From: Stentor roeselii
Taxonomy: Eukaryota > Ciliophora > Heterotrichea > Heterotrichida > Stentoridae
DNA: 64,000 nt
Direction: 5' to 3'
NCBI GenBank assembly: GCA_006503475.1
Contig: RSEH01000003.1
Location: 208,783-272,782 of the forward strand
Position numbers and translations under genes: made by a program. The notes below the pieces were generated by a model. The model had not been told where the DNA came from, made no database searches, and saw only the letters and a list, made by a program, of their open reading frames with translations. Shown here piece by piece: positions 7,926 through 64,000 of this stretch. Position 1 is the first letter of the stretch. Each line of letters starts with the position of its first letter.

Positions 7926-9668
7926 TTATCTGCTAAGGTCAGGAATGCCCCAGTCACAGTCAGTTTCAATTCCAAGGTTATTCTTGTACATAGTAATCCT
8001 GAAGAATCCCTTTTCTCCCCAAAAGGCTCCCCAAGAGTTCCTGACGATCCAATATTCAGTTCCATTTTCAACTCCCCATCCAACAATAGCGACTTCATGA
8101 TTGATTCTAGGGAATAAAAGCTTTTGACTGAAAATTCCTCCAGTATAATCTTCTAGTTGACTAGTTGCGTCGATTCCACATCCAATTGGACCATTAGTGA
8201 AAATTTCTGCTTTCATCTTAGCAGGAGTTGCGACGTATCCGTATTCAGAGACGAACCATCTTTTAGGATTAGCGACTGCTGAGCAGTTCTTTGATCCGAC
8301 GGGGCCGGTGCAGGTCTGACAGACCTGCAGAGCACTGCAGGCGTACTCTGCAGGGTTTTTCGCGATGTACTGTTGACAAGTGTCGTCAGGGATGCCGTGC
8401 TTGTGTCCGAATTCATAAACACCTCCAGGGTTGCCTCCATTACAAGTGCCGCCTGCGTGACAGTTGATGATCACCTGAGGACTTAAAGACAATGTAGGGA
8501 AACTGCCTCCATGAAGAATGTTTATTCTGTCAGCAAGAGAACTCGTCGTGCCATGAGCCCAACAAGAGCCGCAGTAGACTGGAACATGTTGATTTCTGGT
8601 GAAACTTAAAAAGTTGGTCCCGTTTACATTTCTCCAGTCGAAGTTCGCTGGAAGGTCAGAAAGTTTGACTCTTTCCCATGATGGCTTGTTTATTATTCGC
8701 TCTCCGTTCTCGAAGAAAACTTTTGGAACTCGACCTGGTCTACGTTTTTCGATTTGAAGGAAATCGTGAGTTATTGGCTTTAGAGTTTTTGTTGAAGAGA
8801 CTTGGGAGGAGGTCGAGTTTATGATTGTTACTTGAGGGTTTGGAATTGGTACTCCGCAGTATTGCTCGATACCGAAAGCGTTTGTTCCTCTTTGGATCAA
8901 AAAGTTACCGTTGTCTCCCCAGTAAGTTCCCCAGATGTTCCGGCCTTTCCAGTATTGGGTTCCGTTTGATACGCCGTAACCGATTATTTCTACTGCGTGG
9001 TTTAAGGAAACGTTTTGAGAGCTGTTGCCTAGGATTATTCCGGAGGTGTAGTCGAAAAAGTCACTTGTTGCGTAAAGACCACATGAGATTGGACCGGATT
9101 GTAAGGCATTTTGCATCGCGTCTGCACCTGAGATTATGCTGAAACTTGTGATGTTGTATAAGGGGTAGGTTGGAGGCACTGCGCAAGTTCCGTCTGGCTG
9201 GCAGGTGTAGCATGGCATGAATGAAGAGCAGTTTAAGCCGTCAGTATATCCTTTACCCTGATAAACCTCACAAGTTTCATCAGTAATTCCCTTATTAAGA
9301 ATATAGTTGTACGCAGTGATGAAGTCACCTCCACTACATCCATTGCTTCCAAAGTCACAACTAAGAAGTACCTGTGGTGCAATCACAACATCAGGGAAAG
9401 AAGCATTAAAAAGTACTTTAAACCTATCCGACAAGGTAGTAGCCGCAACAAATGCCCATGCACCTTCACAGAACTGAGGAACATGAGAATTTCTAGGAAC
9501 AGTCAAATACCCTACCCCACTGACATTGCTCCAGTCAAGAGCCGAAGGCAGGTCAGTCAAAGGTTTATTTGAAGTGAAAGGCGAGCCAAGTCCCTCAGAA
9601 TTTGGATTTTGTATGAAATTTGCAAAGACACTGGCGACCAGCAAGCCAAGAACGACTTTTCTTACCAT
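7926..9668 (-). CDS. Tandem cathepsin Z-like papain-family (C1A) peptidase; first domain lacks the catalytic Cys
   Basis: The 580-residue secreted or lysosomal protein begins with a signal peptide (first about 17 residues, MVRKVVLGLLVASVFA). Two C1A domains follow (about 38-275 and 335-580), both closest to cathepsin Z/X by the DW.NV.G....T.RN.HVP...C start, the LSDR/LADRINI helix and the paired Cys pattern. Domain 2 has a complete site: YCGSCWA (Cys about 369), INHEVAIVGWG His and RNSWG Asn. Domain 1 has FCEGAWA, with Ala70 in place of the nucleophilic Cys, while its His (LNHAVEIIGYG) and Asn (RNIWG) remain. So domain 2 should be active, and domain 1 is a pseudopeptidase that may bind substrate or inhibit. 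The usual cathepsin Z propeptide is not obvious in front of either domain. Confidence 0.93.
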   Translation of the reverse strand: MVRKVVLGLLVASVFANFIQNPNSEGLGSPFTSNKPLTDLPSALDWSNVSGVGYLTVPRNSHVPQFCEGAWAFVAATTLSDRFKVLFNASFPDVVIAPQVLLSCDFGSNGCSGGDFITAYNYILNKGITDETCEVYQGKGYTDGLNCSSFMPCYTCQPDGTCAVPPTYPLYNITSFSIISGADAMQNALQSGPISCGLYATSDFFDYTSGIILGNSSQNVSLNHAVEIIGYGVSNGTQYWKGRNIWGTYWGDNGNFLIQRGTNAFGIEQYCGVPIPNPQVTIINSTSSQVSSTKTLKPITHDFLQIEKRRPGRVPKVFFENGERIINKPSWERVKLSDLPANFDWRNVNGTNFLSFTRNQHVPVYCGSCWAHGTTSSLADRINILHGGSFPTLSLSPQVIINCHAGGTCNGGNPGGVYEFGHKHGIPDDTCQQYIAKNPAEYACSALQVCQTCTGPVGSKNCSAVANPKRWFVSEYGYVATPAKMKAEIFTNGPIGCGIDATSQLEDYTGGIFSQKLLFPRINHEVAIVGWGVENGTEYWIVRNSWGAFWGEKGFFRITMYKNNLGIETDCDWGIPDLSR

Positions 9669-9882
9669 ATTTATTCAACAGGTAGCGAAAAGAGCATACT
9701 GCATTCAAAGAAAAGTCTTAAATCAATAAAACCTCTATCTTTACCCAATTTTTACTAAAATAAACTATTTTTACCCCTTTTCTTACAAGGTCTTAATAAT
9801 TAATGGATTTTAATTCCTTATTTAGCGCCTAGTATAATTATTATCAATAAATTCCTTCAGAAACAATTATTTAATATTCATC

Positions 9883-14929: not shown

Positions 14930-17900
14930 ATGGTCGATCGAGAAGAACCTTTGCTAGGCACGGCATCAGAAGTAGGAAATGACTTAGAACAAACAGAGGA
15001 TCCTTGCCTAAGGAACCTAGAGCAAGTAAAAGCCCATATCGAACGTGAAATTACTCATGAAAAAATTAGAAACATCTTTGAAAGATCGATAATAAATGGA
15101 CATTCTGACTCTGTATACTCAGTTTGCTTTTCTCCAGATTCCAAGTTGATTGTGTCAGGATCAAAAGATTTTTCAGTCAAAATATGGGACACTAACACAA
15201 AAGAATTATTATCCACACTTGAAGGTCACTCAGGTATAATATTTTCTATTTCAATTTCACCAAACTCTGAGTGGATTGCATCTGGATCAGCTGATAAATC
15301 GATTAAATTATGGAGCCTTTCAAAAAAAAAAGAAGAATTCACACTTCATGGTCATTTAGATTGGATAAGATCAGTCTGCTTCTCAGTTGACTCGAAGCGC
15401 ATAATATCCGGATCTAATGATTATTCTATAAAGGTATGGATAATATCTGAACAAAGAGAGGAATTCACTCTTCTAGGACACTCAAATCGTGTACAATCAG
15501 TTTGTATTTCAGCTGATTCCAGGTGGATCGTAAGTGGCTCCGAAGACAAGTCCATTAAAGTATGGAATATAGCAAAAAGACAGGAAGAGGCTACTTTCAA
15601 AGGACATTTAGATGTTGTAAGAACAGTTTGTATTTCACCAGACTCAAAGTGGGTTGCTTCTGGATCAGATGATAATTTGATTAAAATATGGAGCATTTCT
15701 GAAAAGCGTGAAAAGTTCATACTTAGAGGACATTCAGTTGCTGTAAGATCAATTTGCTTTTCATCTAACTCACAGTATATTGTATCTGGATCCGGTGATA
15801 CTTGTATTAAAATATGGAACTTTTCTGAAAAGAGAGAAGAGTTCACACTAAAAGGACATTCAAATTGGGTGAATTCAGTGTGTTTTTCATCTGATTTGAA
15901 GAGGATTGTATCCGGTTCTGATGATAAATCAATAAACTTGTGGGATATGACTGAAAAAAATAATGAATCCACACTTAAAGGCCATTCACATTGGGTAATG
16001 TCAGTATGGCCTTCACCTGATTCAAAGTGGATTGCTTCAGGATCATATGATTTTTCAATTCGAATATGGAATGTGGCAGAACAAAAACAAGAATCCATTC
16101 TTAAAGGGCATACAATGTGTGTAAGAACTGTCTGCTTTTCTTCTGATTCCAAATGGATTGCTTCTGGATCAGATGATAACTTAATTAAAGTATGGAATTT
16201 CAGTGAAAGTAAAGTTGAGTTCACTCTTAAGGGACATACTGATTGGATATTTTCAGTGAGCTTCTCAGTTGATTCGAAGATGATTGCCTCTGGCTCAAAA
16301 GATTTTTCAGTTAAGATATGGGACACTGAAAAAAGAGTAGAATTATTCACATTCTTAGGACATCTAGACCGAGTATTTTCAGTTTGCATCTCGCCTGACT
16401 CTAAGTGGGTTGCATCTGGATGTGGAGATAAGTTAATAAAAGTATGGAATATTACCGAGAAAAAAGAAGAATTCACTCTTAGAGGACACACTGATTCTGT
16501 ACTTTCAGTCTGCTTTTTCTCAGACTCAAATCAGATAATATCAGGATCAAGTGATACATCTATAAAATTGTGGAGTATTGAACAGAGACAGGAAGAATTG
16601 ACACTTCTTGGACATCAAGGTGGTGTAAATTCAGTTTATCTCTCATCTGATTCAAAGTGGATTGTGTCTGGATCTAGAGATAATTCAGTTAGACTATGGA
16701 ATATCATTGAGAAACGAGAAGAGTTCATACTTCAAGGACATCTCAATTTCGTGAATTCAGTTTGTATCCTTCCTGATTCCAAGTTGATTGCATCTGGATC
16801 CTTTGATAATTCGATTAAATTATGGAATATGACTGGTTTTGAACAACTTGAGTCATGTCTTGACAGAGATTCAGTGTATGATATGAAGTTTTATACGAAG
16901 TATGAATTTGTTAATGCGATATCAATGATCAATTCCAGTCGCTATTCAAATATAGGACTTAATGGTATTGGTTTACTTCTTGGGAATAAGAATTATACAC
17001 CTTTGCACTTTGCTGCTCTTAGTGGGCAGACTGAGGCGATAAGAGCATGGTTTGACATTTTAAAACAATCTGATATAAAAGTTCCAATAAAAGCTGATAC
17101 TTATGGCAAAAGTCCTATTTATTATTCTATAAAGAAACAGCATCAAGTGGCCACTGATCTTCTTCTTAATTACATTGTCGAAATGACTGGAAATGCTGAA
17201 GATTCATTTAAAATACAAAATTTCTATGCATTAAGAAACGATATCAAGATTATCATAGAGAACTCATCACCAAATCTTTGTGAATTTTTGAGTAATTGTC
17301 TTTATTCAAGTAAGGTAGAGAAATATGGAATAGCAAAACAAAGAATGGCATTTATTCCTCGATTTTCACCTGATTACGACTATTTTGTTGAAACTTTTGA
17401 GACGCGAGAACAAGAGCATCTTACAGTTAAATCTTCTTACTTCACTCTTCCTTTTTGTATAGGCTCGAGTGATTCGATATCATTCCTAGAAGCACTTTTA
17501 AATTGCACAGATAAAGAAATATATAGAGTTCAACTCATCAAAAAGTTTGTTCAATGCAGATGGGAAGCCATTCTAAAGTTGGTACTTTTCTATTCACTTC
17601 TAAACTGGATCAATCTTGCATTAATAATATTAGAACTTAGTCGATTATCGGGATTACTTTCATTGATATCCCTAGTCATTGTTAATTCAACTTTACTTTT
17701 ATGGGAGATTCTTCAATTCAAAGCAATAGGAATAGACTATTTCAAAGATTTATGGAATGATATCGATATCCTAAAAATATTCATCACTATCATCTGGGTC
17801 ACTCTCAGAAATTTAAATTTTAAAATGGAATTGCTTAGTGTACTAGTTGTTATACTAGGTGGCATAAGAGGACTTACTGGTTTTAGAGCATTTGAAAGCA

Positions 17901-18562
17901 CTCGATATTATATAAGACTTATTTTCGAATCACTTAAAAAAATTTTTTCATTTCTAATGATATTTGCTTACACTACATTATGTTTCGGGCTACTAAGCAT
18001 AGTATCTGGAGAACATGAAGTTCAAGTAACTTTCGAAAAATTGTGGATAGATCCTTTCAGTCTATATTTTGGGCCACCAGATAGCTTGAAATTGAACTCG
18101 TTAAATATGGTATATCTCTCATTTTTAATAGCTTTTCTTGTGAACATTGTGCTTATGCTTAATATGATCATTTCGATTTTATCTGATTCTTATGACGAAT
18201 TTCAAGTATTCGCTATTTACTGTGATTGCAGAGAAATGACTGAAGTTATTTTGGAAATTGAACAGATGTTTTCTATCTCAACAAGAATTAATAAAGATAT
18301 GTTTTTTCAAGTTTGTGTTAACTACTATAAGGAGGAGGACGATAATTGGCAAGGTAAAGTTCTCGATACTCGGGTAGAGCTGATTAAAAATCGAGCAATG
18401 ATAAAATTAAATTGTGAGAAAATCGAAAGATTTGAGGAGAAAATTGATACCAAAATCAGAGAAGTTGAAGAAAAGATCGAAAGTGATATTAGAGGAGTTG
18501 AAGACAGTATCAAGCAAGTGTATACCAGGCTTGAAGAAATTCATACCCTTCTTAATAAGTAG
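14930..18562 (+). CDS. WD40-repeat/TRP-like ion channel fusion (14 WD40 units)
   Basis: The 1210-residue protein has 14 WD40 repeats of 42 residues (about 56-640), each with GH, SVCFS.DSK, SGS.D.SIK(I/V)W; 14 units would give two seven-bladed propellers. Next is an ankyrin-like pair (about 690-760, YTPLHFAALSGQ and GKSPIYYSI), then six TM segments (about 880-1090), with a pore loop before the last one (FSLYFGPPDS) and the TRP-like S6 end NIVLMLNMIISILSDSYDEF. The tail (about 1160-1210) is a coiled coil suited to tetramer assembly. I infer a TRPV-like cation channel with a cytosolic WD40 sensor. The pore sequence GPPD differs from its paralogue's GGDIG, so selectivity may differ or be weak. 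Start context TATAAATG. Confidence 0.85.
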   Translation: MVDREEPLLGTASEVGNDLEQTEDPCLRNLEQVKAHIEREITHEKIRNIFERSIINGHSDSVYSVCFSPDSKLIVSGSKDFSVKIWDTNTKELLSTLEGHSGIIFSISISPNSEWIASGSADKSIKLWSLSKKKEEFTLHGHLDWIRSVCFSVDSKRIISGSNDYSIKVWIISEQREEFTLLGHSNRVQSVCISADSRWIVSGSEDKSIKVWNIAKRQEEATFKGHLDVVRTVCISPDSKWVASGSDDNLIKIWSISEKREKFILRGHSVAVRSICFSSNSQYIVSGSGDTCIKIWNFSEKREEFTLKGHSNWVNSVCFSSDLKRIVSGSDDKSINLWDMTEKNNESTLKGHSHWVMSVWPSPDSKWIASGSYDFSIRIWNVAEQKQESILKGHTMCVRTVCFSSDSKWIASGSDDNLIKVWNFSESKVEFTLKGHTDWIFSVSFSVDSKMIASGSKDFSVKIWDTEKRVELFTFLGHLDRVFSVCISPDSKWVASGCGDKLIKVWNITEKKEEFTLRGHTDSVLSVCFFSDSNQIISGSSDTSIKLWSIEQRQEELTLLGHQGGVNSVYLSSDSKWIVSGSRDNSVRLWNIIEKREEFILQGHLNFVNSVCILPDSKLIASGSFDNSIKLWNMTGFEQLESCLDRDSVYDMKFYTKYEFVNAISMINSSRYSNIGLNGIGLLLGNKNYTPLHFAALSGQTEAIRAWFDILKQSDIKVPIKADTYGKSPIYYSIKKQHQVATDLLLNYIVEMTGNAEDSFKIQNFYALRNDIKIIIENSSPNLCEFLSNCLYSSKVEKYGIAKQRMAFIPRFSPDYDYFVETFETREQEHLTVKSSYFTLPFCIGSSDSISFLEALLNCTDKEIYRVQLIKKFVQCRWEAILKLVLFYSLLNWINLALIILELSRLSGLLSLISLVIVNSTLLLWEILQFKAIGIDYFKDLWNDIDILKIFITIIWVTLRNLNFKMELLSVLVVILGGIRGLTGFRAFESTRYYIRLIFESLKKIFSFLMIFAYTTLCFGLLSIVSGEHEVQVTFEKLWIDPFSLYFGPPDSLKLNSLNMVYLSFLIAFLVNIVLMLNMIISILSDSYDEFQVFAIYCDCREMTEVILEIEQMFSISTRINKDMFFQVCVNYYKEEDDNWQGKVLDTRVELIKNRAMIKLNCEKIERFEEKIDTKIREVEEKIESDIRGVEDSIKQVYTRLEEIHTLLNK

Positions 18563-48978: not shown

Positions 48979-51900
48979 CTAAACTAATTTATTTTTTGAG
49001 TTCATGATTTCTAGTAACTTAGAAAGCTGGGAATTTATCTCATCAAATTTTTCATTCATCTTTTTAGTGCTATCATCAATTTTTTCATTCATCTTTTTAG
49101 TGTTCTCATCAATTTTTTCATTCATATTTTTGGTGTTTTCATCAATTCTTTTGGTATTCTCATCAATCTTTTTACTATTCTCATCAAATTTTTCATCAAT
49201 TTTTTCATTCATCTTTTTATTGACCTGATCAATCTTAATCCCAATTTCTTCAATTCTTTTCTCTTGTCTTAGCTCTGAATACATTAATCTCCCATGCCAG
49301 TCTTCATTTTTTTCTCTCTTATCAAATTGGCTTTCAAGAAAGTGAACAAAATACCAATTATTTAACTTTTTTTTCCATAATAGACCAGTTTGAAATTCTA
49401 CTGCAAGAGAAATTCGTTCCCTGTAATCAATGATATTTTTATCTAGAGAAAATTGATCGTAGCTATCTCCAAGTATAGAAATAAGCATATTCAGCATGAG
49501 AATCAAATTAAAAATAGTCGACAGAAACACGATTAAGAAGATGATTCCATGTTGGCTTTCTATTCCAATATCTCCTCCAACACTAAGAGCCCATGATTTT
49601 TTCAGCACATCGAAGTAGTTTGAGTCATCCTCTTTATCATTCAAGATAATCATATATAAGAGTAATGAGAAAAAGAGGGTAGAGTAAATGAATATGATCA
49701 AAAAGTATTTAATATTATTCAATGACTGGAGGATTAAACGAATATAGTGCCTAGTTCCATCGAATATTTTAAATGAAGCTATTCCTCGGACCATCAAAAG
49801 CGAACCAAGAATCAAATCGGTATACAATAAATCAATTCTCAAAACTCGAAAAATGATCCAAACAGGTGTCAAAATTAATAGCATGGCATCAACGATATTC
49901 CAAGGATTCAACCAATATTCTTTGTAGTTAGATCTGATCTGTAATGCTTCCCAAATAAATATTAAACAATAAGTTACCCAGAATGGAATCATAAAATATA
50001 GTGAGGTATTATGAATAAAGGATAAACCATAAAACACTATGTGAAACCATATTAATATTGAATAAGTGGCAGCCCATTTATATACTGATTTCCAATTATG
50101 ATCTATGAAGTATTGTATCAGGGGATCGTTATAAATTTTTTTATTTGAGCAATTTAATAGAACTTGAAGTGCTTCTATATTTTCTTGTGAATAAGGTTGA
50201 ATTGGTAATGGTATTGCAGTATATTTCAAAATGCTACTAATCATTTTGTTATTTCCATTAAATTTTTCTTTGTATTCTTCTTCGAATTCTTTGAATCTGG
50301 GATTTAATGTCTGCTTAATTAAATAAATTGGTAGATTTGCTGATATTGGTACTTGCAACTTATTTCTTGCCTCAAAAACTATTTTTGATAAATACTCAGG
50401 AATATTTATAGATGAAGTTTCTATGATTAAAAAAAAGTCATTTCGTGTTGAGTGTAAACTGCTTATTAGTTTGTATTTATCTTTCTCATCAATATCAATC
50501 AAATACAATAACACAATTTCAAAACAATCTATCTGTTTATTTAGAATTGCATAATAAAGAGGGGATTTCCCAAATACATCAGCCATAATTTGTACTTTTT
50601 CTTCAGTTTCGTTAATAAGTAATTTTTTAAGTGATATAGAATCACCATGAATACAAATAAAATGTACTATCGTATATTTGTATTCAGAAATCAAAATATT
50701 GCAATGCTTTTGCACAAGCTTTGTGTAGTCTTTACATTTTACTGCTTTTAATGCAAAATTATATGTACCTAGTTCATAGTGAAATTGGTCTCTGATTGAG
50801 TATGGTCTTAACATCAGACCATCTGAAGGAATAACTTTAGAGTCAATATCTATAATACAATTGTTTCTTTTTTGATAGCTTAATAGATCTTTATATATTT
50901 CATTGAGAATTAGAGGTTTATCTAAGATAAATGAAACACTCACTGAATTCAAAAGAAGTGTCAGCTCTAGACCATCATATTTTTTTATTTGGAAATATTG
51001 CACCTTTTCGTTTGAGCAGTTTATTTCGAAACCATAAATGCTGTGAACAATTTTATAATTACCATTTCGATTTATATTTTGTCCTTGTTGTTGATTAAGT
51101 AAAACCTCAGATTTGGTTTTTTCTTCTACTTGCTCATCAAAATTCAAAGACTCTTGCTCTGTAAAAAGAAAGTTTATTTGTTCATTTCTAGAATTGGTAC
51201 CTGTAATATCATTATCAGCTTTAATTAACTTTTTCTTTTCTTTTGTTATTTTATTTATTTGGTCTTGATTTTTATGGATTTCTGCAAGTTTCCAAATCTT
51301 AATTGCCCCTTCACTAAGTCCAACAGCAAAAATTTGATCTATCCTTGAAAAGCGAACACATTTAACGTGGCTTGAATAGTCTTTACTATATAGTAGATTT
51401 TTCTTATCAATATCCCAGATTTTGAAAGTTTTATCTAAAGAGCCTGAGATCAATAGAGATCCATCTTTTGATATTGATACTGAAGTGATTTCTTCAGAAT
51501 GATTGAAAGTAACTAAAGAAGATTGGCTTTCAATACTCCAAACTTTCACTGTGCTGTCAGATGATCCTGAAGCAAAAAAATTTCGAATAGTTGAAAAACT
51601 GATTGAATTTACGCAATCGACGTGCTCGTTAAACTGGAATTTTACTTGTCTCTCTTGCACACTCCATATTTTAATCCTTCCATCAAGTGATCCAGAAGCT
51701 AATAATTCATCATCAAATGAAAAGCACAGAGATCTCACTGCGGATTGATGCCCTTTTAATTGGTAATCTTCTCTTATTTCTTCAAGTTTCGATAGTATAA
51801 TTATTGAATCTTCAGAACCAGAAGCCAAATATATTCCAGAATTACTGAAACAAGTTGATATTATCTGATTTTGATATTGAATATGTTGATATTCTTTATT

Positions 51901-54900
51901 TTCTTGAATATTGAAAATTATAATATTATGTTTGAATGACCCAAATGCAATCATTTTCCCATCATTTGAGAAGCTGGTAGATTCAGGGTAGCCTTCAAAA
52001 TCACAAAAGAAATTCATATCTGCAAGTTTGGAAATTCTTATCGAATTTTTCAATGAATTTCCTGATACTAATAGATCTAAGTGTGGAGAAAAACAGATAC
52101 AAAAGTTACTTTCTTGTATCGCTTCCAATTTCTCTAAGCATCTCAAAGGGTCTGAGCAGCTACCAGTATATACTTTTTTCTTCATTTTGATATTCCAAAT
52201 TGAGATCTTATTATCTCTAGATCCTGAAGCGACGAAATTCCCATCAGAAGAGAAACAAACTGAATAAACTTTCCCTGAATGGTTTACCGTAAATTCTTCT
52301 CGTTTTTCTTTTAAATTCCACACTTTAACTGTATTGTCATAGGATCCTGAAGCAACAAAATTCCCATCATAAGAGAAACAAACCGAGTTTACAGAATTTA
52401 AATGCTTACCAGTAAATTCTTCTCGTTTTTCTTTTAAATTCCACACTTTAACTGTATAGTCGTCAGATCCTGAAGCGACGAAATTCCCATCACAAGAGAA
52501 ACAAACTGATCTTACATGGCTTGAATGGTTCCCAGTCATTTCTTCTCCTTTTTCTTTTAAATTCCACACTTTAACTGTATTATCATAGGATCCTGAAGCG
52601 ACCAAATTCCCATCAGAAGAAAAACAAACTGATCTTACATAGCTTGAATGGTTTCCAGTAATTTCTTCTTGTTTTGCTTTTAAATTCCACACTTTTACAG
52701 TATTATCGTCAGATCCTGAAGCGACGAAATTCCCATCACAAGAGAAACAAACTGATCTTACATAGCTTGAATGGCTTGCTGTAAATTCTTCTCGCTTTTC
52801 TTTTAAATTCCACACTTTTACTGTATTGTCATAGGATCCTGAAGCGACGAAATTCCCATCAGAAGAGAAACAAACTGACATTACAAAACTAAAATGCTTT
52901 CCAGTGAATTCTTCTCGTTTTTCTTTTAAATTCCACACTTTAACTGTATCGTCATAGGATCCTGAAGCGACGAAATTCCCATCAGAAGAAAAACAAACTG
53001 AGCTTACCTTCCTTGAATGCTTACCAGCAATTTCTTCTCGTTTTTCTTTTAAATTCCATACTTTTACTGTATTGTCGTCAGATCCTGAAGCGACGAAATT
53101 CCCATCACAAGAGAAACAAACTGATCTTACATAGCTTGAATGGTTTCCAGTAAACTTTTTTCGTTTTTCTTTTAAATTCCAAACTTTTACTGTATTATCG
53201 TCAGATCCTGAAGCAACGAAATTCCCATCAGAAGAGAAGCAAACTGAAAAAACACTCCCTGAATGGTTCCAAGTCATTTCTTCCCGTTTTTCTTTTAAAT
53301 CCCACACTTTTACAGTATGGTCGTCAGATCCTGAAGCGACGAAATTCCCATCAGAAGAGAAACAAACTGAATGAATACTCCCTGAATGGCTTCCAGTAAA
53401 TTCTTCGCGTTTTTCTTTGAAATTCCAAACTTTTACTGTTGTGTCATTGGATCCTGAAGCGATGAAATTACCATCAGAAGAAAAACAAACTGATCTTACA
53501 TCCCTTGAATGGTTCCCAGAAAATTCTTCTCGTTTTTCTTTTAAATTCCACACTTTTACTGTCTTGTCGTCAGATCCTGATGCAACGAAATTCCCATCAG
53601 AAGAGAAACAAACTGAGTATACAGAATTTAAATGGTTTCCTGTGAATTCTTCTCGTTTTTCTTTTAAATTCCACACTTTTACTGTCTTGTCATAGGATCC
53701 TGAAGCAACGAAATTCCCATCAGGAGAGAAGCAAACTGAATAAACACTCCCTGAATGGTTTGTGGTAAATTCTTCTCGTTTTTCTTTCAAATTCCACACT
53801 TTTACTGTATCCTCAGATCCTGAAGCGACGAAATTCCCATCAGAAGAGAAACAAACTGATTTTACAGAATTAAAATGGTTTCCTGTAAATTCTTCTCGTT
53901 TTTCTTTTAAATTCCACACTTTAACTGTATTGTCATAGGATCCTGAAGCGACGAATTTCCCATCAGAAGAAAAACAAACTGAATGAATACTCCCTGAATG
54001 GTTTCCAGTAAATTCTTCTCGTTTTTCTTTTAAATTCCAAACTTTTACTGTCTTGTCGTCAGATCCTGAAGCGATGAAATTCCCATCAGTAGAGTAACAA
54101 ACTGAGTTTACAAAATTTAAATGGTTTCCTGTAAATGCTTCTCGTTTTTCTTTTAAATTCCACACTTTTACTATCTTGTCGTCAGATCCTGAAGCGACGA
54201 AATTCCCATCAGAAGAGAAACAAACTGATCTTACATAGTCTGAATGGCTCCCTGCAAGCTCTTCTCGTTTTTCTTTTAAATTCCACACTGTTAGTGCATC
54301 GTTAGATCCTGAGGCGATGAAATTCCCATCAAAAGAGAAACAAACTGAATTAACAGTCCTTAAATGTTTTCCGGTAAATTCTTCTCGTTTTTCTTTTAAA
54401 TTCCAGACTTTTACTGTATTGTCATAGGATCCTGAAGCGACGAATTTTCCATCAGGTGAAAAACAAACTGATCTTACATAGTTTGAATGGTTTCCAGTCA
54501 TTTCTTCACGTTTTTCTTTTAAATTCCAAACTTTAACTGTATTGTCGTCAGATCCTGAAGCGACAAAATTCCCATCAGAAGAGAAAAAAACTGAAAAAAC
54601 ACTCCCTGAATGGTTTCCAGTAAACTCTTCTCGTTTTTCTTTAAAATTCCACACTTTTACTGTGTTGTCATAGGATCCTGAAGCAACGAAATTCCCATCA
54701 GAAGAGAAGCAAACAGAATAAACACTTCCTGAATGGTTACCAGTAAATCCTTCTCGTTTTTCTTTTATATTCCATACTTTTATTGTATTGTCGTCAGATC
54801 CTGAAGCGACGAAATTACCATCAGAAAAGAAACAAACTGATCTTACACTCCTTAAATGTTTTCCAGTAAAATCTTCCCGTTTTTCTTTTAAATCCCAAAC

Positions 54901-55293
54901 TTTAACTGTATTGTCGGCAGATCCTGATGCGATGAAATTCCCATCAAAAGAGAAACAAACTGAATAAACGCTCCCTGAATGGTTTCCAGTAAATTCTAAT
55001 CGATCCTCAATGAGATTCCATACTCTCAAAGCTTTATCATCTGATCCAGTCGCAAGATATCTTCCACAGTTAGAGAATGATACAGAATTAACTTTTGCCC
55101 CATGCTGAAATTCGACATATGGAGTAGCTCTGATCTCCAAGATCTTTCTCTTTATGCAATAGTTAAGATAATCCCTAAGCTTCGTTGATGTTGCTTTTTG
55201 CGATATACCTAATGTATTCATGCTCTTTGCTGAATCTCCAGGCACTACCTTTGCTAAATCAATTGCACCGTATTGTGGTCCCAAATCACTCAT
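48979..55293 (-). CDS. Giant WD40-repeat/TRPV-like ion channel fusion (about 31 WD40 units)
   Basis: The 2104-residue protein begins with a short leader and one divergent WD40 unit (about 60-101), then 23 nearly identical 41-residue units (102-1042), then about seven diverged units (1043-1342). A linker with an ankyrin-like pair (GDSISLKKLLI; GKSPLYYAI) leads to six TM segments (about 1730-1960). The pore loop WALSVGGDIG resembles the TRPV filter, and S6 ends NLILMLNMLISILGDSYDQF. The tail (about 2025-2104) is a coiled coil of repeated KKMNEKIDENT units. I infer a cation channel with a very large cytosolic WD40 recognition array. The 1210-aa gene at 14930 is a paralogue over the ankyrin-channel part. 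The start context is TATAAATG, stop TAG. Confidence 0.87.
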   Translation of the reverse strand: MSDLGPQYGAIDLAKVVPGDSAKSMNTLGISQKATSTKLRDYLNYCIKRKILEIRATPYVEFQHGAKVNSVSFSNCGRYLATGSDDKALRVWNLIEDRLEFTGNHSGSVYSVCFSFDGNFIASGSADNTVKVWDLKEKREDFTGKHLRSVRSVCFFSDGNFVASGSDDNTIKVWNIKEKREGFTGNHSGSVYSVCFSSDGNFVASGSYDNTVKVWNFKEKREEFTGNHSGSVFSVFFSSDGNFVASGSDDNTVKVWNLKEKREEMTGNHSNYVRSVCFSPDGKFVASGSYDNTVKVWNLKEKREEFTGKHLRTVNSVCFSFDGNFIASGSNDALTVWNLKEKREELAGSHSDYVRSVCFSSDGNFVASGSDDKIVKVWNLKEKREAFTGNHLNFVNSVCYSTDGNFIASGSDDKTVKVWNLKEKREEFTGNHSGSIHSVCFSSDGKFVASGSYDNTVKVWNLKEKREEFTGNHFNSVKSVCFSSDGNFVASGSEDTVKVWNLKEKREEFTTNHSGSVYSVCFSPDGNFVASGSYDKTVKVWNLKEKREEFTGNHLNSVYSVCFSSDGNFVASGSDDKTVKVWNLKEKREEFSGNHSRDVRSVCFSSDGNFIASGSNDTTVKVWNFKEKREEFTGSHSGSIHSVCFSSDGNFVASGSDDHTVKVWDLKEKREEMTWNHSGSVFSVCFSSDGNFVASGSDDNTVKVWNLKEKRKKFTGNHSSYVRSVCFSCDGNFVASGSDDNTVKVWNLKEKREEIAGKHSRKVSSVCFSSDGNFVASGSYDDTVKVWNLKEKREEFTGKHFSFVMSVCFSSDGNFVASGSYDNTVKVWNLKEKREEFTASHSSYVRSVCFSCDGNFVASGSDDNTVKVWNLKAKQEEITGNHSSYVRSVCFSSDGNLVASGSYDNTVKVWNLKEKGEEMTGNHSSHVRSVCFSCDGNFVASGSDDYTVKVWNLKEKREEFTGKHLNSVNSVCFSYDGNFVASGSYDNTVKVWNLKEKREEFTVNHSGKVYSVCFSSDGNFVASGSRDNKISIWNIKMKKKVYTGSCSDPLRCLEKLEAIQESNFCICFSPHLDLLVSGNSLKNSIRISKLADMNFFCDFEGYPESTSFSNDGKMIAFGSFKHNIIIFNIQENKEYQHIQYQNQIISTCFSNSGIYLASGSEDSIIILSKLEEIREDYQLKGHQSAVRSLCFSFDDELLASGSLDGRIKIWSVQERQVKFQFNEHVDCVNSISFSTIRNFFASGSSDSTVKVWSIESQSSLVTFNHSEEITSVSISKDGSLLISGSLDKTFKIWDIDKKNLLYSKDYSSHVKCVRFSRIDQIFAVGLSEGAIKIWKLAEIHKNQDQINKITKEKKKLIKADNDITGTNSRNEQINFLFTEQESLNFDEQVEEKTKSEVLLNQQQGQNINRNGNYKIVHSIYGFEINCSNEKVQYFQIKKYDGLELTLLLNSVSVSFILDKPLILNEIYKDLLSYQKRNNCIIDIDSKVIPSDGLMLRPYSIRDQFHYELGTYNFALKAVKCKDYTKLVQKHCNILISEYKYTIVHFICIHGDSISLKKLLINETEEKVQIMADVFGKSPLYYAILNKQIDCFEIVLLYLIDIDEKDKYKLISSLHSTRNDFFLIIETSSINIPEYLSKIVFEARNKLQVPISANLPIYLIKQTLNPRFKEFEEEYKEKFNGNNKMISSILKYTAIPLPIQPYSQENIEALQVLLNCSNKKIYNDPLIQYFIDHNWKSVYKWAATYSILIWFHIVFYGLSFIHNTSLYFMIPFWVTYCLIFIWEALQIRSNYKEYWLNPWNIVDAMLLILTPVWIIFRVLRIDLLYTDLILGSLLMVRGIASFKIFDGTRHYIRLILQSLNNIKYFLIIFIYSTLFFSLLLYMIILNDKEDDSNYFDVLKKSWALSVGGDIGIESQHGIIFLIVFLSTIFNLILMLNMLISILGDSYDQFSLDKNIIDYRERISLAVEFQTGLLWKKKLNNWYFVHFLESQFDKREKNEDWHGRLMYSELRQEKRIEEIGIKIDQVNKKMNEKIDEKFDENSKKIDENTKRIDENTKNMNEKIDENTKKMNEKIDDSTKKMNEKFDEINSQLSKLLEIMNSKNKLV
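49028..49222 (-). repeat. 21-33 bp degenerate repeats coding the coiled-coil tail
   Basis: Within the channel gene, short repeated units encode (K/N)KMNEKIDENT and KRIDENTK. The 11-residue/heptad spacing indicates a parallel coiled coil, as in tetrameric TRP channel tails. DNA similarity suggests recent slippage. Confidence 0.7.
52168..54990 (-). repeat. 123-bp tandem repeat array: 23 nearly identical WD40 units
   Basis: The array codes for residues 102-1042 of the giant channel. Every unit is 41 codons except two of 40 (units 6 and 10 of the array, each missing one residue before the VWNL strand). The framework (SVCFSSDGNF, VASGS, TVKVWNLKEKREEF) is nearly constant in DNA and protein. Differences cluster after the GxH (columns 5-7 and 9) and just before the Asp after SGS (column 25). 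Such an array is prone to unequal recombination and to assembly error. Confidence 0.95.
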
Positions 55294-59975: not shown

Positions 59976-60077
59976 TCAAGTCAAATGATAAGCTTTATCT
60001 TATTTTCATGAGTTGTAATTATTTTCTCAAGTCAAATGATAAGCTTTATCTTATTTTCATGAGTTGTAATTATTTTC
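59976..60077. repeat. exact 51-bp tandem duplication
   Basis: Two identical 51-bp copies, 59976-60026 and 60027-60077, beginning TCAAGTCAAATGATAAGC. There is no coding signal. Perfect identity in AT-rich intergenic DNA suggests a recent slippage or repair event, or an assembly duplication. Confidence 0.9.
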
Positions 60078-60526
60078 TAATCTTGAGTTATGGCTTTCTA
60101 GTTAAATGTCTGACCGTATATCGAATCAGTATGAATGCATTCTCTTATATATGAATATCAGAGAAACTAGGAATTATCATCATGAATTCCTAATAGTCTA
60201 AAAAAATGTGTTAATTGTTAATTATTAATATAATTTTAATAATATTTAGGATCTATCTTTAAAGCAAAAAATAATGATTTTCATATTAAGACGATGATCT
60301 TATAAATTCGAAAGATTATTTAGAATCTAGATTCATGAAGATATAAAAAATAGATGATACCTATAAGGATAATTATGAAGACAATGTTTCTAAATTATAG
60401 ACTTAAAAACCATTAATTATTGTCACATGGTTTAAACATATTATTTACCTCTTAATTGTATTCAAAAACTTTTCACCCTATCGAAATTTGATTAAAATTG
60501 CTCATTTTTAGATCATATATTTAATA

Positions 60527-60624
60527 TTTTTCTATATTACCCAATTCTAAGTTTATCATATTGTCTCTTATTTACTTTTTCTATATTACCCAATTCTAAG
60601 TTTATCATATTGTCTCTTATTTAC
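60527..60624. repeat. exact 49-bp tandem duplication
   Basis: Two identical 49-bp copies, 60527-60575 and 60576-60624, beginning TTTTTCTATATTACCC. It is unrelated in sequence to the 51-bp duplication 0.5 kb to the left but alike in size and perfection. Confidence 0.9.
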
Positions 60625-62185
60625 TTGAATAATTACAAGACTATACAAAAAAATTAAATATATCTATTGTGAAGTGATGCAAAAATAATTTTTTTCACTC
60701 AAATTTTACATTCATAATTATAAAATTTTCTCTCAACTTGAGTCTTAACAAAAACTTATTTAATTTACTCAGAATTTTATTCATCATAATAAAAGAATCA
60801 CCCATATCGATAGTTTTCTATGATTCGATAATAATTTCGAACACTTTCAAGATCTCAATGTTGAGCAAATTCTCCCAAACTAAGTCTTCATCGATTACTT
60901 ATAAACTCCTTTTCAATATTCATAATATTTGCTATTTTAATATTTTTAGTTAAATAGAAATCACCAGTCATCATTATTCTGTGATGCATTTTTTTATATT
61001 TTGAATATATCGATGACTCTAGAGTTAAAAATATCAGAATATTTACAGTTTTAAGTACAATGATACTTGTATTAAGTATTATATTTGATTATTTCGTTGT
61101 TTATAATAATATAGAAGTAAGCAGAAGATTTCTTCAAGATTTTGGCGGTGCTCATTATGAGTTAGTCAATTTTTTTTACAGAAGCATCAGCTTATGTTAT
61201 ATTGATATGTTTTCGGCAGGGATGACTTTTAATTGTAAAACTCTTCTGATAAATATAGTCTCAGTTATTATAATTTTTCGTTTGAATTGAAAAAACTTAA
61301 GGTTGATATTGATTTTTCATTATAATATTCTATAATGCCTAGGAAAAAATGAATCAGTTGCCCTTTTTAGAAGAATTCTTTAAATGGAGTACTTTAATAG
61401 TTAGAATTAATTTCAGCCAATCAGTCATTGTCTGAAAAAAAAAATTAATAGAATGCTTTGATGATTATGAAAATAGTTTTTCTTTTAGATTGCATGCAAT
61501 CATGAAATAGTATTATCGAATTGATATTCTCTATTCCTTTAGCATCTTACTTTATATAAGTGGACATTACTTATTCAAGGTAGATAGATTGAAAAGACCT
61601 ATTAAGCGAATAATAAGAATTCGATAATTATCTATTGATGGGCTATATAGGAAGTTTGGATAATGAATGGAAAAGAGGTTCATGAACTATAGAAATTTTA
61701 GCGATATAGTTTAAAATGTATAAATTATAAAATCAAGTGCTAGTAAAATTTACTAAATATAAATATCCATTTACATGCTAATTTTTTTTACACTGCAAGT
61801 TATATCTAGTTTTATTTAGATATTTTCTAATTAAAATAAGTACAAGTTAGATTCATATGATTATTGAATCATCATTATTTTAATTCTCTCTTGTTGATCT
61901 TAACTACCATTAAGACTCTCTTCAATCCAAATAATCTAAGCTTATTTAATATCTTTGATTAGTACTTTAGCACATTATTAAGAAATATTCCCAGATTTAT
62001 GATTCAAGATAACTTCTATTATGATTATAAAGATACTGAATTTCAAAGGGAATTAATATATATATTGATTACGATTTAAATACTTTTTCACTAATAAATT
62101 ATGAGTCGAGAAACTTCACTAGAATTGATAGTAAATTTTTTTTTAAATTTAAGTTTAATTGATTACTATATTACTTTATTAGAAC

Positions 62186-64000
62186 TTAAGGATTTTGATT
62201 ACGGGCTTTCATATAATAAGTTTCAGCTTTGGAATAATCCCCTTGAGCTTGATAAAGCGATGCCAAATTATGAAATGTTGTTGCTAAGTCTGGATGATTG
62301 TTGGGGAGAACCTGCTGTTTGATTTCAAGGTCTTTCATATAATAAGTTTCAGCTTTGGAATAATCCCCTTGAGCTTGATAAAGCGAACCTAAACAGCTAA
62401 ATGTTGTTGCTAAGTCTGGATGATTGTTGGGGAGAACCTGCTGTTTGATTTCAAGGCATTTCATATAATAAGTTTCAGCTTTGGAATAATTGCCTCGAAG
62501 ATAATAAAAACTGCCAAGTTTAAAATACTCTCGTGTAAATTTGATTTCATCTTTACCAACGCTCATAAATTTTTCAACTTTTTTAATTAAATCATCAGCT
62601 TTTTCTAATTCAAAAGTTATTATCAGGTAGCTCATTGCCAAGTTCAAATAAATAAAAATAGATTCATCCGTAATTCCTAAAGGCTTTAGAACATTCTCAG
62701 CATGAATTATCAGATTTCGTGCATTTTCTCTTTTCGATTTATCGTTACTTACATTTTTATCGATTTCAAAAAATTGTTCAAAATACTTAAGCAGATCTTT
62801 ATAGTTTTCACTATCCTTAGGTAGATATTCATGTATTGAGTCATGAATATTAATCATGCGTTTCTCTGATTCATAATTAACTAGGTACAATCCCAATAAA
62901 TTTCCTTTTACCTTACTCCAGGTGCATTCATCGTATTTTTCTAATATAATTGTTTTTATCATTATTTCTGGAATTTTTTTTGCTGGACAGCATCCTAAAA
63001 TTTTCATCACATATTTAGACTCATCTGACATTCTTTCAATTATTTCTCTGATGACCCTTTGCACTTCTTCTATATCATCAAAATTTCTCTCTATCAAATC
63101 ATCAATATTTAGCATTTCCTGGATGCATGTTATGTAAGGTTGAATATGAAGTCCCGTGCCTTTCATTTTTGATGATAACTGAGTGATCTTTTCTTCTTTG
63201 ACATTTGGTAGTTTTGCCATGAGATATTGCTTTATGTCTTGAGAATCTAGCAAACTGATATCTAGACGAGATTTCCAGTGAATCATTCTTGAAGTTATCA
63301 AATACTTTATATTCATTGATTCTGTGTAATATTCTTTTATTTCATCCCATGAGTCAAAGCTATCAAAAAATAGTAAGATTTTTTCTTTTATTTTTCCGGT
63401 ATTAAGTCTTATTTTAATCAATTCATATGCATTTTCACCTTCAGGGACTCCAATAGGATTACCTAATCTTAAAATATCCAATTTCATATTATCTGAACCG
63501 ATTTGAATTATGATGTCATATATTTCTTTATATTTTTCGCAGTACTGGAGTGCCAGGAATGTTTTTCCCATCCCAGTGAACCCACTTATAGTCACAATAT
63601 TCTTTTCTTGAAACATTTTATGAATATTATCACACTCTGTATCTCTGTATATCTGCTGTTGAATTATCTTATCAAAATATTTGAGGGTATTGCTATATAT
63701 AATTTCATCATTTTGTTCATTTCTGTCTTCTAAAATAATATGCACTCTATTATCCACTTCATTTAATATTCTACTCTCATAAATTTTTTTTGCTCTCTCA
63801 CTAACTCTTGTATTATTTTTAAGTACCTTTAAAAACTGCACACATTTTTCTCTGATTTCCCAGTTTTGATGATAACTTAACTTGAAAACCTCTTCAACAA
63901 TATCAACCAGATATTCTGATGAAATTCTTTTTTCAATCACACAGTCCTGAGCATAGTTCAATAAAATATATTTTTCTTCCCAATTCAGTTTATTTATTCC
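62186..64000 (-). CDS. STAND (NB-ARC-like) ATPase with KLC-type TPRs, 3' part; 5' end outside window
   Basis: The frame is open from the right window edge; residue 63961 is not a true start (TTG codon) and the protein continues upstream (INKLNWEEKYIL...). About 604 residues are visible: a helical, possibly HEAT-like segment; an NB-ARC-type NTPase with P-loop GFTGMGKT (about 63560), Walker B KILLFFDSFD, and ITSRMIHWKSR like the NB-ARC sensor; a winged-helix-like region (VMKILGCCPAKKIPEIM); a helical linker; then kinesin-light-chain-type TPRs of 42 residues (AETYYMK.LEIKQQVLPNNHPDLATTF..L.SLYQAQGDYSK). STAND proteins are oligomerising switches, including NLR immune receptors and apoptotic ATPases. 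The ligand here is unknown. The last TPR is cut after AETYYMK. Confidence 0.88.
   Translation of the reverse strand, partial: GINKLNWEEKYILLNYAQDCVIEKRISSEYLVDIVEEVFKLSYHQNWEIREKCVQFLKVLKNNTRVSERAKKIYESRILNEVDNRVHIILEDRNEQNDEIIYSNTLKYFDKIIQQQIYRDTECDNIHKMFQEKNIVTISGFTGMGKTFLALQYCEKYKEIYDIIIQIGSDNMKLDILRLGNPIGVPEGENAYELIKIRLNTGKIKEKILLFFDSFDSWDEIKEYYTESMNIKYLITSRMIHWKSRLDISLLDSQDIKQYLMAKLPNVKEEKITQLSSKMKGTGLHIQPYITCIQEMLNIDDLIERNFDDIEEVQRVIREIIERMSDESKYVMKILGCCPAKKIPEIMIKTIILEKYDECTWSKVKGNLLGLYLVNYESEKRMINIHDSIHEYLPKDSENYKDLLKYFEQFFEIDKNVSNDKSKRENARNLIIHAENVLKPLGITDESIFIYLNLAMSYLIITFELEKADDLIKKVEKFMSVGKDEIKFTREYFKLGSFYYLRGNYSKAETYYMKCLEIKQQVLPNNHPDLATTFSCLGSLYQAQGDYSKAETYYMKDLEIKQQVLPNNHPDLATTFHNLASLYQAQGDYSKAETYYMKARNQNP
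62206..62480 (-). repeat. 126-bp near-identical TPR repeat units
   Basis: The marker ATATAATAAGTTTCAGC recurs at 62211, 62337 and 62463, a period of exactly 126 bp (42 codons), and nearly all bases between are identical. Identity ends abruptly near 62206, where the reading frame runs into unrelated AT-rich DNA and a stop, so the array seems truncated by recombination. Confidence 0.92.

Follow-up and report, generated by a model that had tools for sequence, protein, structure and literature searches.

The closest described systems to the gene reported here include WD40 proteins with near-identical repeat units. In Podospora anserina, the HNWD genes (het-d, het-e and het-r) encode HET-NACHT-WD40 proteins, a family of fungal NLRs with high internal conservation of their WD40 units (PMC1805685, PMC2873952, PMC12222747). 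The strongest positive selection was reported at codons 7, 9, 25 and 27 of the unit, beside the conserved codons 8 and 26 (Paoletti 2007, PMC1805685), and active alleles were described as mostly carrying 11 conserved and 3 cryptic units, for which a model of two 7-blade propellers was given (PMC12222747). Hu 2017 (PMC5587647) likewise described highly repetitive WD40 proteins as having a uniform scaffold and diverse interaction hotspots. Here we analyze a window of 64,000 nt from contig RSEH01000003.1 (positions 208,783-272,782) of the ciliate Stentor roeselii (genome of 44.4 Mb in 522 contigs) that contains a gene, labelled C339, with such an array. The scaffold of this array is under purifying selection, its contact face changes fast, the number of units is held, and the array is fused to a channel-like domain. 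Judging from sequence, we estimate a probability of roughly one half that C339 combines an intracellular protein sensor with a TRPV-like cation channel, the contact face of the sensor being re-dealt for recognition.

Architecture of the C339 protein

The gene is read from the minus strand and comprises the following parts.

48979..55293, minus strand: whole open reading frame (ORF), 2104 amino acids with WD40, ankyrin, TRPV-like channel and coil parts, in a single open frame (standard code)
55108..55293, minus strand: N-terminal stretch, residues 1-62, in which paralogs can be aligned
54985..55107, minus strand: WD40 unit 1, a diverged cap (unit segmentation)
52162..54984, minus strand: WD40 units 2-24, 23 near-identical units with variable columns 3, 4, 5, 7, 23 and 25
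51274..52161 (end approximate), minus strand: degenerate WD40 units 25-31, several scoring just 1-4 bits
50479..50709, minus strand: ankyrin repeats, Pfam Ank_2 (E 5.5e-7)
49363..50070, minus strand: transmembrane channel region, five hydrophobic segments on a simple scale and a phmmer match to TRPV3
49006..49263, minus strand: tandem repeat of coil-like type at the C-terminus, weakly similar to trimeric coiled coils (E 0.04)

An earlier note on this DNA had described 23 near-identical WD40 units, and both Tandem Repeats Finder (a 123-bp tandem array of 22.6 copies at 52219-54997) and unit segmentation (units 2-24) confirmed them. Units 7 and 11 have 40 residues and the other 21 have 41; all 23 units share residues H2, S20, S22, D24 and W30. 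Mean amino-acid identity is 0.774 over all columns and 0.908 over the framework columns. The framework had also been called almost invariant in DNA, which was too strong: mean DNA identity among units 2-23 is 0.84 (0.90 in framework columns), and the units of C339 differ by 0.29 at synonymous sites. Assemblies are known to go wrong at tandem repeats, and collapsed or chimeric repeats or a faulty annotation might in principle have produced such a picture. However, we regard this as hardly credible: DNA differences between units average 16%, the open frame runs over 2104 codons, and six further intact loci, located on other contigs, show the same 24-unit layout.

The best solved-structure matches of the channel region are TRPV3 entries, a weak similarity of E 1e-4 over 201 residues (49363-49965), and the simple hydrophobicity scale gave five rather than six segments. 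Pfam had no Ion_trans match in the C339 channel region (residues 1390-2104), where it returned Ank_2 and low-scoring coil-like families and no NTPase, and in a search of the genome with PF00520 the C339 locus was absent among the matches listed. With the whole protein as query, all of the Pfam matches listed (25 of 50 families) were WD40 or propeller families. Together, the TRPV3 and Ank_2 matches support the proposed fusion of the array to a channel that appears TRPV-like, if only remotely so. The C-terminal coil-like repeat could plausibly serve as an oligomerisation element.

Variable columns and the predicted contact face

In our numbering, units begin at N-H, and columns 5-7, 9 and 25 of the earlier note hence become columns 3-5, 7 and 23. 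Ranked by entropy among the 41 columns, 7, 5, 4, 25 and 23 come out on top, followed by 13, 39, 1, 38 and 3. Column 25, which belongs to the top face, had been left out of the earlier note, as had columns 13 and 39, which vary yet lie off the top face. The four Podospora codons, aligned via the conserved V and D, correspond to columns 5, 7, 23 and 25. In our hand alignment all four rank in the top five of 41 (chance 5e-5) and in the alignment made with a hidden Markov model in the top six (chance 1.5e-4), figures that disregard the general variability of contact columns in WD40 units. Furthermore, the published rules for the top-face hotspots R1-2, R1 and D-1, as given in Wu 2012 (PMC3419727), place these at columns 5, 7 and 23.

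For units 16-22, modelled with five other window-protein stretches, AlphaFold2 gave a mean predicted local distance difference test score (pLDDT) of 95.7 and a predicted template modelling score of 0.92. Strands a, b, c and d of this model occupy columns 6-11, 17-22, 26-31 and 36-1, and columns 3-5 and 23-25 therefore fall into the d-a and b-c loops. These loops make up the top face of WD40 propellers. Strand assignment and published hotspots thus support the claim that the variable columns sit on the predicted contact face. Foldseek matches of the model are WD40 propellers, including the highly repetitive 2ymu and the designed 7bie; PkwA (5yzv) and 2ymu were among the best. Modelling the whole 24-unit array as a single sequence yielded a mean pLDDT of 40.1 and was discarded. 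Two alignments of overlapping stretches (A1 and A2) were also discarded for whole-unit shifts, and the alignment of non-overlapping stretches (A3) was used.

Concerted evolution at a constant number of units

A genome search with the channel part returned at least 74 scored matches; of 74, six contain internal stops and two are the halves of one broken copy. Six intact relatives of C339 have channel parts 57-87% identical to that of C339. In the channel tree, C339, C27, C427, C183, C145, C146 and C4 form one group (support 87/90, or 100/100 against the sister group alone), and the first five of these are referred to here as the five closest genes. Between paralogs, omega of the channel is 0.14-0.27.

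All seven genes contain the 24-unit block, to which C145 adds a cut-off 25th unit and C146 and C4 a remnant. The unit number had been expected to be labile, but of the 13 family members counted, 11 have 24 units (the seven genes, C375, C178, C445 and C80), the exceptions being C73 with 31 units and the irregular C438. Outside this count stand C116, with its array cut by the contig end, C403, with its array outside the sequence taken from the contig, C31 and the remaining channel matches.

The flanks of the array can be aligned position by position between paralogs, whereas units 2-24 show no such correspondence. Among the five closest genes, residues 1-103 (the N-terminal stretch and unit 1) share an amino-acid identity of 0.71-0.81, and in 10 of 10 comparisons unit 1 is matched better by its same-position counterpart than by units 2-23. 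The degenerate units 25-31 are alignable among C339, C27, C427 and C183; no such units were detected in C145, and C146 retains at most a remnant. For the channel, the proportion of synonymous differences (pS) between the five closest genes is 0.23-0.31; for units 25-31, compared in four genes as C145 is without these units, it is 0.22-0.26. In the array, pS between genes is 0.35-0.45 for same-position units and 0.36-0.46 for different-position units, while within an array it is 0.28-0.35 and lower than between genes in 10 of 10 pairs. Concerted evolution after the gene splits, confined to units 2-24, is hence clear among the five closest genes, in line with the homogenisation proposed earlier. 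In the branch of C339, position correspondence between genes has been lost and the arrays have become more uniform within genes. The contact residues nevertheless form many combinations: 144 distinct sets of four residues occur in the 161 units of the seven arrays, and just 8 are common to two or more arrays.

Adjacent units were no more similar than distant ones over the 84 offsets tested, from which we infer that scattered conversion fits better than unequal crossing-over. A check for block duplication and higher-order repeats gave no offset that was prominent in more than one array.

Concerning genome placement, of the 16 best-scoring channel copies 12 are less than 10 kb from a contig end and all 16 less than 25 kb, and contigs C146 and C438 carry telomere repeats at their ends. 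Channel copies are possibly subtelomeric, although contig breaks at repeats could mimic such a placement. Some contig ends carry TGTTAGGG repeats, the same repeat that was reported for Blepharisma telomeres in the form CCCTAACA (PMC9942806), which points to a heterotrich ciliate.

A sister clade with static contact faces

Three further genes, C375, C178 and C445, have channel parts 52-54% identical to that of C339 and share a layout of 24 units followed by a linker, 8 units and a degenerate block. This layout hints at propellers of 3x8 and 8 blades; the 31 units of C73 (24 + 7) hint at 7 blades. In pairwise comparisons within this sister clade, units find their best match at the same position in 23, 15 and 16 of 23 cases, whereas for C339 and C27 this holds in 2 of 23. 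The same contrast is seen at the contact columns, at which same-position identity in the sister clade is 0.76, 0.67 and 0.69 and different-position identity 0.18; for C339 and C27 the respective values are 0.25 and 0.23. Other columns of the sister clade have same-position identities of 0.72, 0.57 and 0.61. Contact columns there are thus no less conserved than the scaffold. A stronger statement, that they are more conserved, was dropped, as the bootstrap intervals of the difference between contact and scaffold columns over positions include zero (-0.035 to 0.116, -0.021 to 0.220 and -0.035 to 0.171). Silent sites between the sister-clade genes differ by 0.68-0.92, and the splits of these genes are therefore older. 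The sister clade hence preserves contact face and scaffold over long times, whereas the clade of C339 scrambles its contact face quickly. Columns 5 and 7 also rank 1-4 for variability between units in the static arrays of C375, C178 and C445; what is distinctive in C339 is the uniform scaffold together with the loss of position, rather than the variability of these two columns alone.

This comparison bears on two other explanations. The array might be a structural tether, its uniform propellers serving as a spring or a cytoskeleton anchor and its variation having no meaning for recognition. Ankyrin repeats have been proposed to act as a spring in NOMPC-type TRP channels, and a count of 24 units in 11 of 13 copies is what a requirement for length or closure predicts. 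However, a pure spring predicts no clustering of change on the contact face, and the sister clade holds its contact residues by position as well as its scaffold; as these residues are kept position by position, the contact face must be functional there. We hence consider a purely mechanical role rather improbable. Alternatively, the array might be young, that is, amplified recently from a single unit, with variable columns that are merely tolerant and no ongoing exchange. High unit identity and the strong variation of columns 5 and 7 in the static clade as well would agree with this. But the 24-unit block is present in the static sister clade too, and a within-array pS of 0.28-0.35 is not young. 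Moreover, same-position pS in the array exceeds that of the channel and of units 25-31, which requires exchange after the gene splits, and recent amplification is accordingly very unlikely.

One further copy, C80, is broken: a stop-rich insert of some 1.3 kb divides its 24-unit array into 13 + 11 units. The insert lies inside unit 13 at about 78.2-79.5 kb of the contig (L046, L047, L014), and the channel part contains a TAG. C80 is either a broken copy or a retained germline element.

Tests of selection at the contact columns

Columns 5, 7, 23 and 25 were chosen beforehand from Podospora as the set to be tested. For each array we give the ratio of nonsynonymous to synonymous substitution (dN/dS) at these columns by counting with whole-unit dS, by counting with four-column dS, by maximum likelihood (ML) on a tree and by ML on a star tree, and finally the number of neutral runs reaching the observed estimate, which for all seven genes were simulated on the C339 tree only.

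C339: 2.21; 1.47; 2.29; 2.55; 0/120
C27: 1.75; 1.73; 1.33 (p=0.146); 1.70; 13/120
C427: 1.56; 0.84; 1.55; 2.11; 4/120
C183: 1.89; 1.17; 1.88; 1.98; 1/120
C145: 3.04; 2.73; 2.58; 4.35; 0/120
C146: 1.29; 1.45; 1.52; 1.55; 4/120
C4: 1.22; 1.06; 1.58; 1.45; 3/120

The reading in the earlier note implies elevated dN/dS at the variable columns. This held insofar as the four-column ratio exceeds 1 in all seven arrays, both by counting with whole-unit dS and by ML, and the bootstrap interval of the counting estimate lies above 1 in C339, C27, C427, C183 and C145. For the remaining 35 columns, counting gave 0.22-0.31. The ML test of the four columns reached a nominal p<0.05 in 6 of 7 arrays on the FastTree tree and in all seven on the star tree; its MG94-like model was run with home-made code, checked just by neutral simulations (25 + 120) on the tree and parameters of C339, and the test is liberal, partly from incomplete optimisation. 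At the contact columns, the proportion of nonsynonymous differences (pN) is 0.48-0.57 and pS 0.28-0.49 over the seven arrays, and these columns evolve no slower than silent sites.

Several results weigh against reading the array as a diversified recognition surface. Among the 120 neutral simulations on the C339 tree, 12 exceeded a likelihood ratio (LR) of 3.84, 6 of them upward, and 2 upward runs matched or beat the LR of 14.75 of C339; the smaller set gave 3 upward passes in 25. Since neutral simulations pass too often, the nominal p-values of the prior-column test are untrustworthy. The general comparison of models M1a and M2a was significant in none of five arrays with F3x4 frequencies (C146 and C4 excluded) and in one of seven, C145, with MG94-type frequencies. 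Column 25 alone reaches 0.72-1.14 in six arrays, and in C427 it falls outside the top nine (<0.75). With four-column dS the ratio ranges from 0.84 to 2.73 and is below 1 in C427, C27 is unremarkable against the neutral simulations, and recombination among units violates the tree model throughout. Homogenisation, too, is uneven: the contrast is small for C27 and C427 (0.35 between, 0.31 and 0.35 within) and slight for C146 and C4 (0.49 between, 0.46 and 0.48 within). Some position signal remains, with p<0.05 in 15 of 126 permutation tests (21 gene pairs by six measures; about 6 expected), for example at the silent sites of C339 and C27 (p=0.008), and among the 84 offsets, two are above z 2.5, offset 4 in C27 (z 2.9) and offset 12 in C4 (z 2.8). 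Finally, the channel homology itself is weak by sequence.

A part of these results would suit relaxed constraint, that is, loss of the partner after duplication, with folding keeping the scaffold while the face drifts neutrally and exchange homogenises the rest. Most arrays need no site class above 1 in the general tests, column 25 is near 1, and diverse hotspots are reported as general in highly repetitive WD40 proteins (PMC5587647), so that the pattern that the earlier note took for a signature of NLR-type proteins is present in C339 but is generic for this wider class. Yet neutral drift does not easily explain prior-column estimates above 1 in seven of seven arrays by two methods, nor that at most 4 of 120 neutral simulations reach the observed estimates in six of the seven. 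Likewise, pN at the contact columns exceeds pS, and the seven genes conserve both the channel and the 24-unit block. We thus regard relaxed constraint as a possibility to be taken seriously, if an unlikely one. Diversifying selection on the contact columns is likely overall, though not proven; by gene, C339, C145 and C183 are likely cases, C427, C146 and C4 possible ones, and C27 lacks support for it. A fast-evolving recognition array on an ion channel, as proposed in the earlier note, hence stays plausible, with selection evidence weaker than had been claimed.

A possible mechanism

For the sensor reading, we may picture the following. TRP N-termini are cytosolic, and no hydrophobic segment precedes the array in C339; the array would thus be located in the cytosol. 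Every array would display its own composite binding surface. Short, gene-conversion-like exchanges among units would redistribute contact residues, while selection would maintain the scaffold and the 24-unit architecture. A partner protein, be it of a parasite, a symbiont, prey or another strain, might bind the top faces of the array, and binding could be relayed via the ankyrin domain to channel gating and cation entry. In the clade of C339 the partner would be changing or would have to be distinguished, and in the C375 clade it would be constant; the sister clade indeed looks like a sensor with an unchanging partner. As a first guess, immune or self/non-self recognition would be the most likely reason for the scrambling.

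Going further, we may tentatively speculate that the genome encodes dozens of TRP-like channels, many of them headed by WD40 units, and that one clade turned from a conserved-partner sensor into an innate immune or self/non-self receptor set. Gene conversion would re-deal the contact surfaces of this set while the unit number stays constant, and recognition of an intracellular partner would gate a cation channel directly, without a STAND ATPase. If true, a unicellular eukaryote beyond fungi would maintain a fast-evolving set of intracellular receptors. The same genome also provides a natural control in the sister genes, which have the same 24-unit block with contact residues kept by position, and the contrast of static and scrambled clades makes partner, exchange at constant unit number, and channel gating directly testable.

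Other features of the window and the genome

The window contains a second WD40-channel gene, the channel part of which is 28% identical to that of C339.

14930..18562, plus strand: second WD40-channel gene, 1210 amino acids, 14 visibly diverged WD40 units of 42 amino acids

The genome also contains a second WD40 family (L049, L003, L053, L054, L058 and others, on contigs C441, C92, C119, C53 and C161) with 42-residue units and a common N-terminus. Its open frames mostly contain 9-17 units (several are cut off or broken, and one has 4), mean unit identity ranges from 0.30 to 0.80, and unit number seems to vary. The C-terminal part of L054 matches protein kinases (E 1e-6), and no hydrophobic segment was found in L049 and L054, the two members checked. 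Six NACHT domain matches were obtained in the genome (best E 4.4e-7), and STAND proteins therefore probably coexist with the WD40 channels.

Near the contig end, 7 kb from the WD40 channel gene, an ORF at 62186-63961 on the minus strand has a weak nSTAND3 match (E 2.5e-4, under the cut-off); TPR units repeat there at 126 bp (62206-62490, 2.3 copies, 93% matches), and the ORF may possibly be another receptor with homogenised repeats. An ORF of 702 amino acids at 43-2151 on the plus strand matches RIH_assoc (E 2e-4, under the cut-off) and presumably resembles IP3/ryanodine receptors in their C-terminal channel part. Upstream of the WD40 channel gene, AT-rich DNA contains two perfect tandem duplications, one of 51 bp x2 at 59976-60078 and one of 49 bp x2 at 60527-60626. 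Stop codons in 17 of 22 ORFs of the window (5 doubtful ones excluded) are TAA in 9, TAG in 8 and TGA in none; reading TGA as W lengthens a single large gene, by 12 codons (7926-9668 becomes 7926-9704). The window showed no enrichment of introns of the Blepharisma size (15-16 nt); for 22 nt the enrichment was 1.6-fold.

Comparison with known systems

The design of the recognition array itself is already known from HNWD, and diverse hotspots are known from highly repetitive WD40 proteins at large. C339 shares near-identical WD40 units with HNWD; concerted evolution occurs in both, on the side of C339 clearly among the five closest genes, and variability is greatest at the same four codons, those next to the conserved V and D. 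Unit number is constant across the C339-type genes, whereas in Podospora units are gained and lost in mutants and alleles; still, a constrained number has a precedent, since functional Podospora alleles usually have 11 + 3 units. HNWD proteins combine a STAND NTPase with a HET domain, neither of which was found among the Pfam matches listed for C339, where the output domain is a membrane channel. By its predicted domains, C339 is outside the fungal NLR family, the NTPase being absent. Moreover, the incompatibility function is proven for HNWD, whereas C339 is known from its sequence alone.

With its near-identical units and diverse hotspots, C339 also agrees with the description of highly repetitive WD40 proteins. 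Hu 2017 ascribes repetitiveness to recent duplication, whereas the 24-unit block of C339 is common to a sister clade that is not homogenised; unlike the proteins described there, the array of C339 is fused to a channel. TRPV channels, with ankyrin repeats and six transmembrane segments, have the order of ankyrin repeats and channel that is predicted for C339, which differs from them by its weak similarity and its 31 N-terminal WD40 units. Among the titles and abstract starts listed from open-licence PMC text, no WD40-TRP fusion was named, nor were a coupling of WD40 units to a TRPV-like channel, its expansion or a pair of static and scrambled clades.

Plant NLR resistosomes act as Ca2+ channels, with a pore assembled from NLR subunits. 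They are no relatives of C339, and the analogy is limited to recognition leading to cation influx; in C339, sensor and channel would share one polypeptide. If true, a diversified WD40 recognition module known on fungal NLRs would here be coupled to a second type of output, an ion channel.

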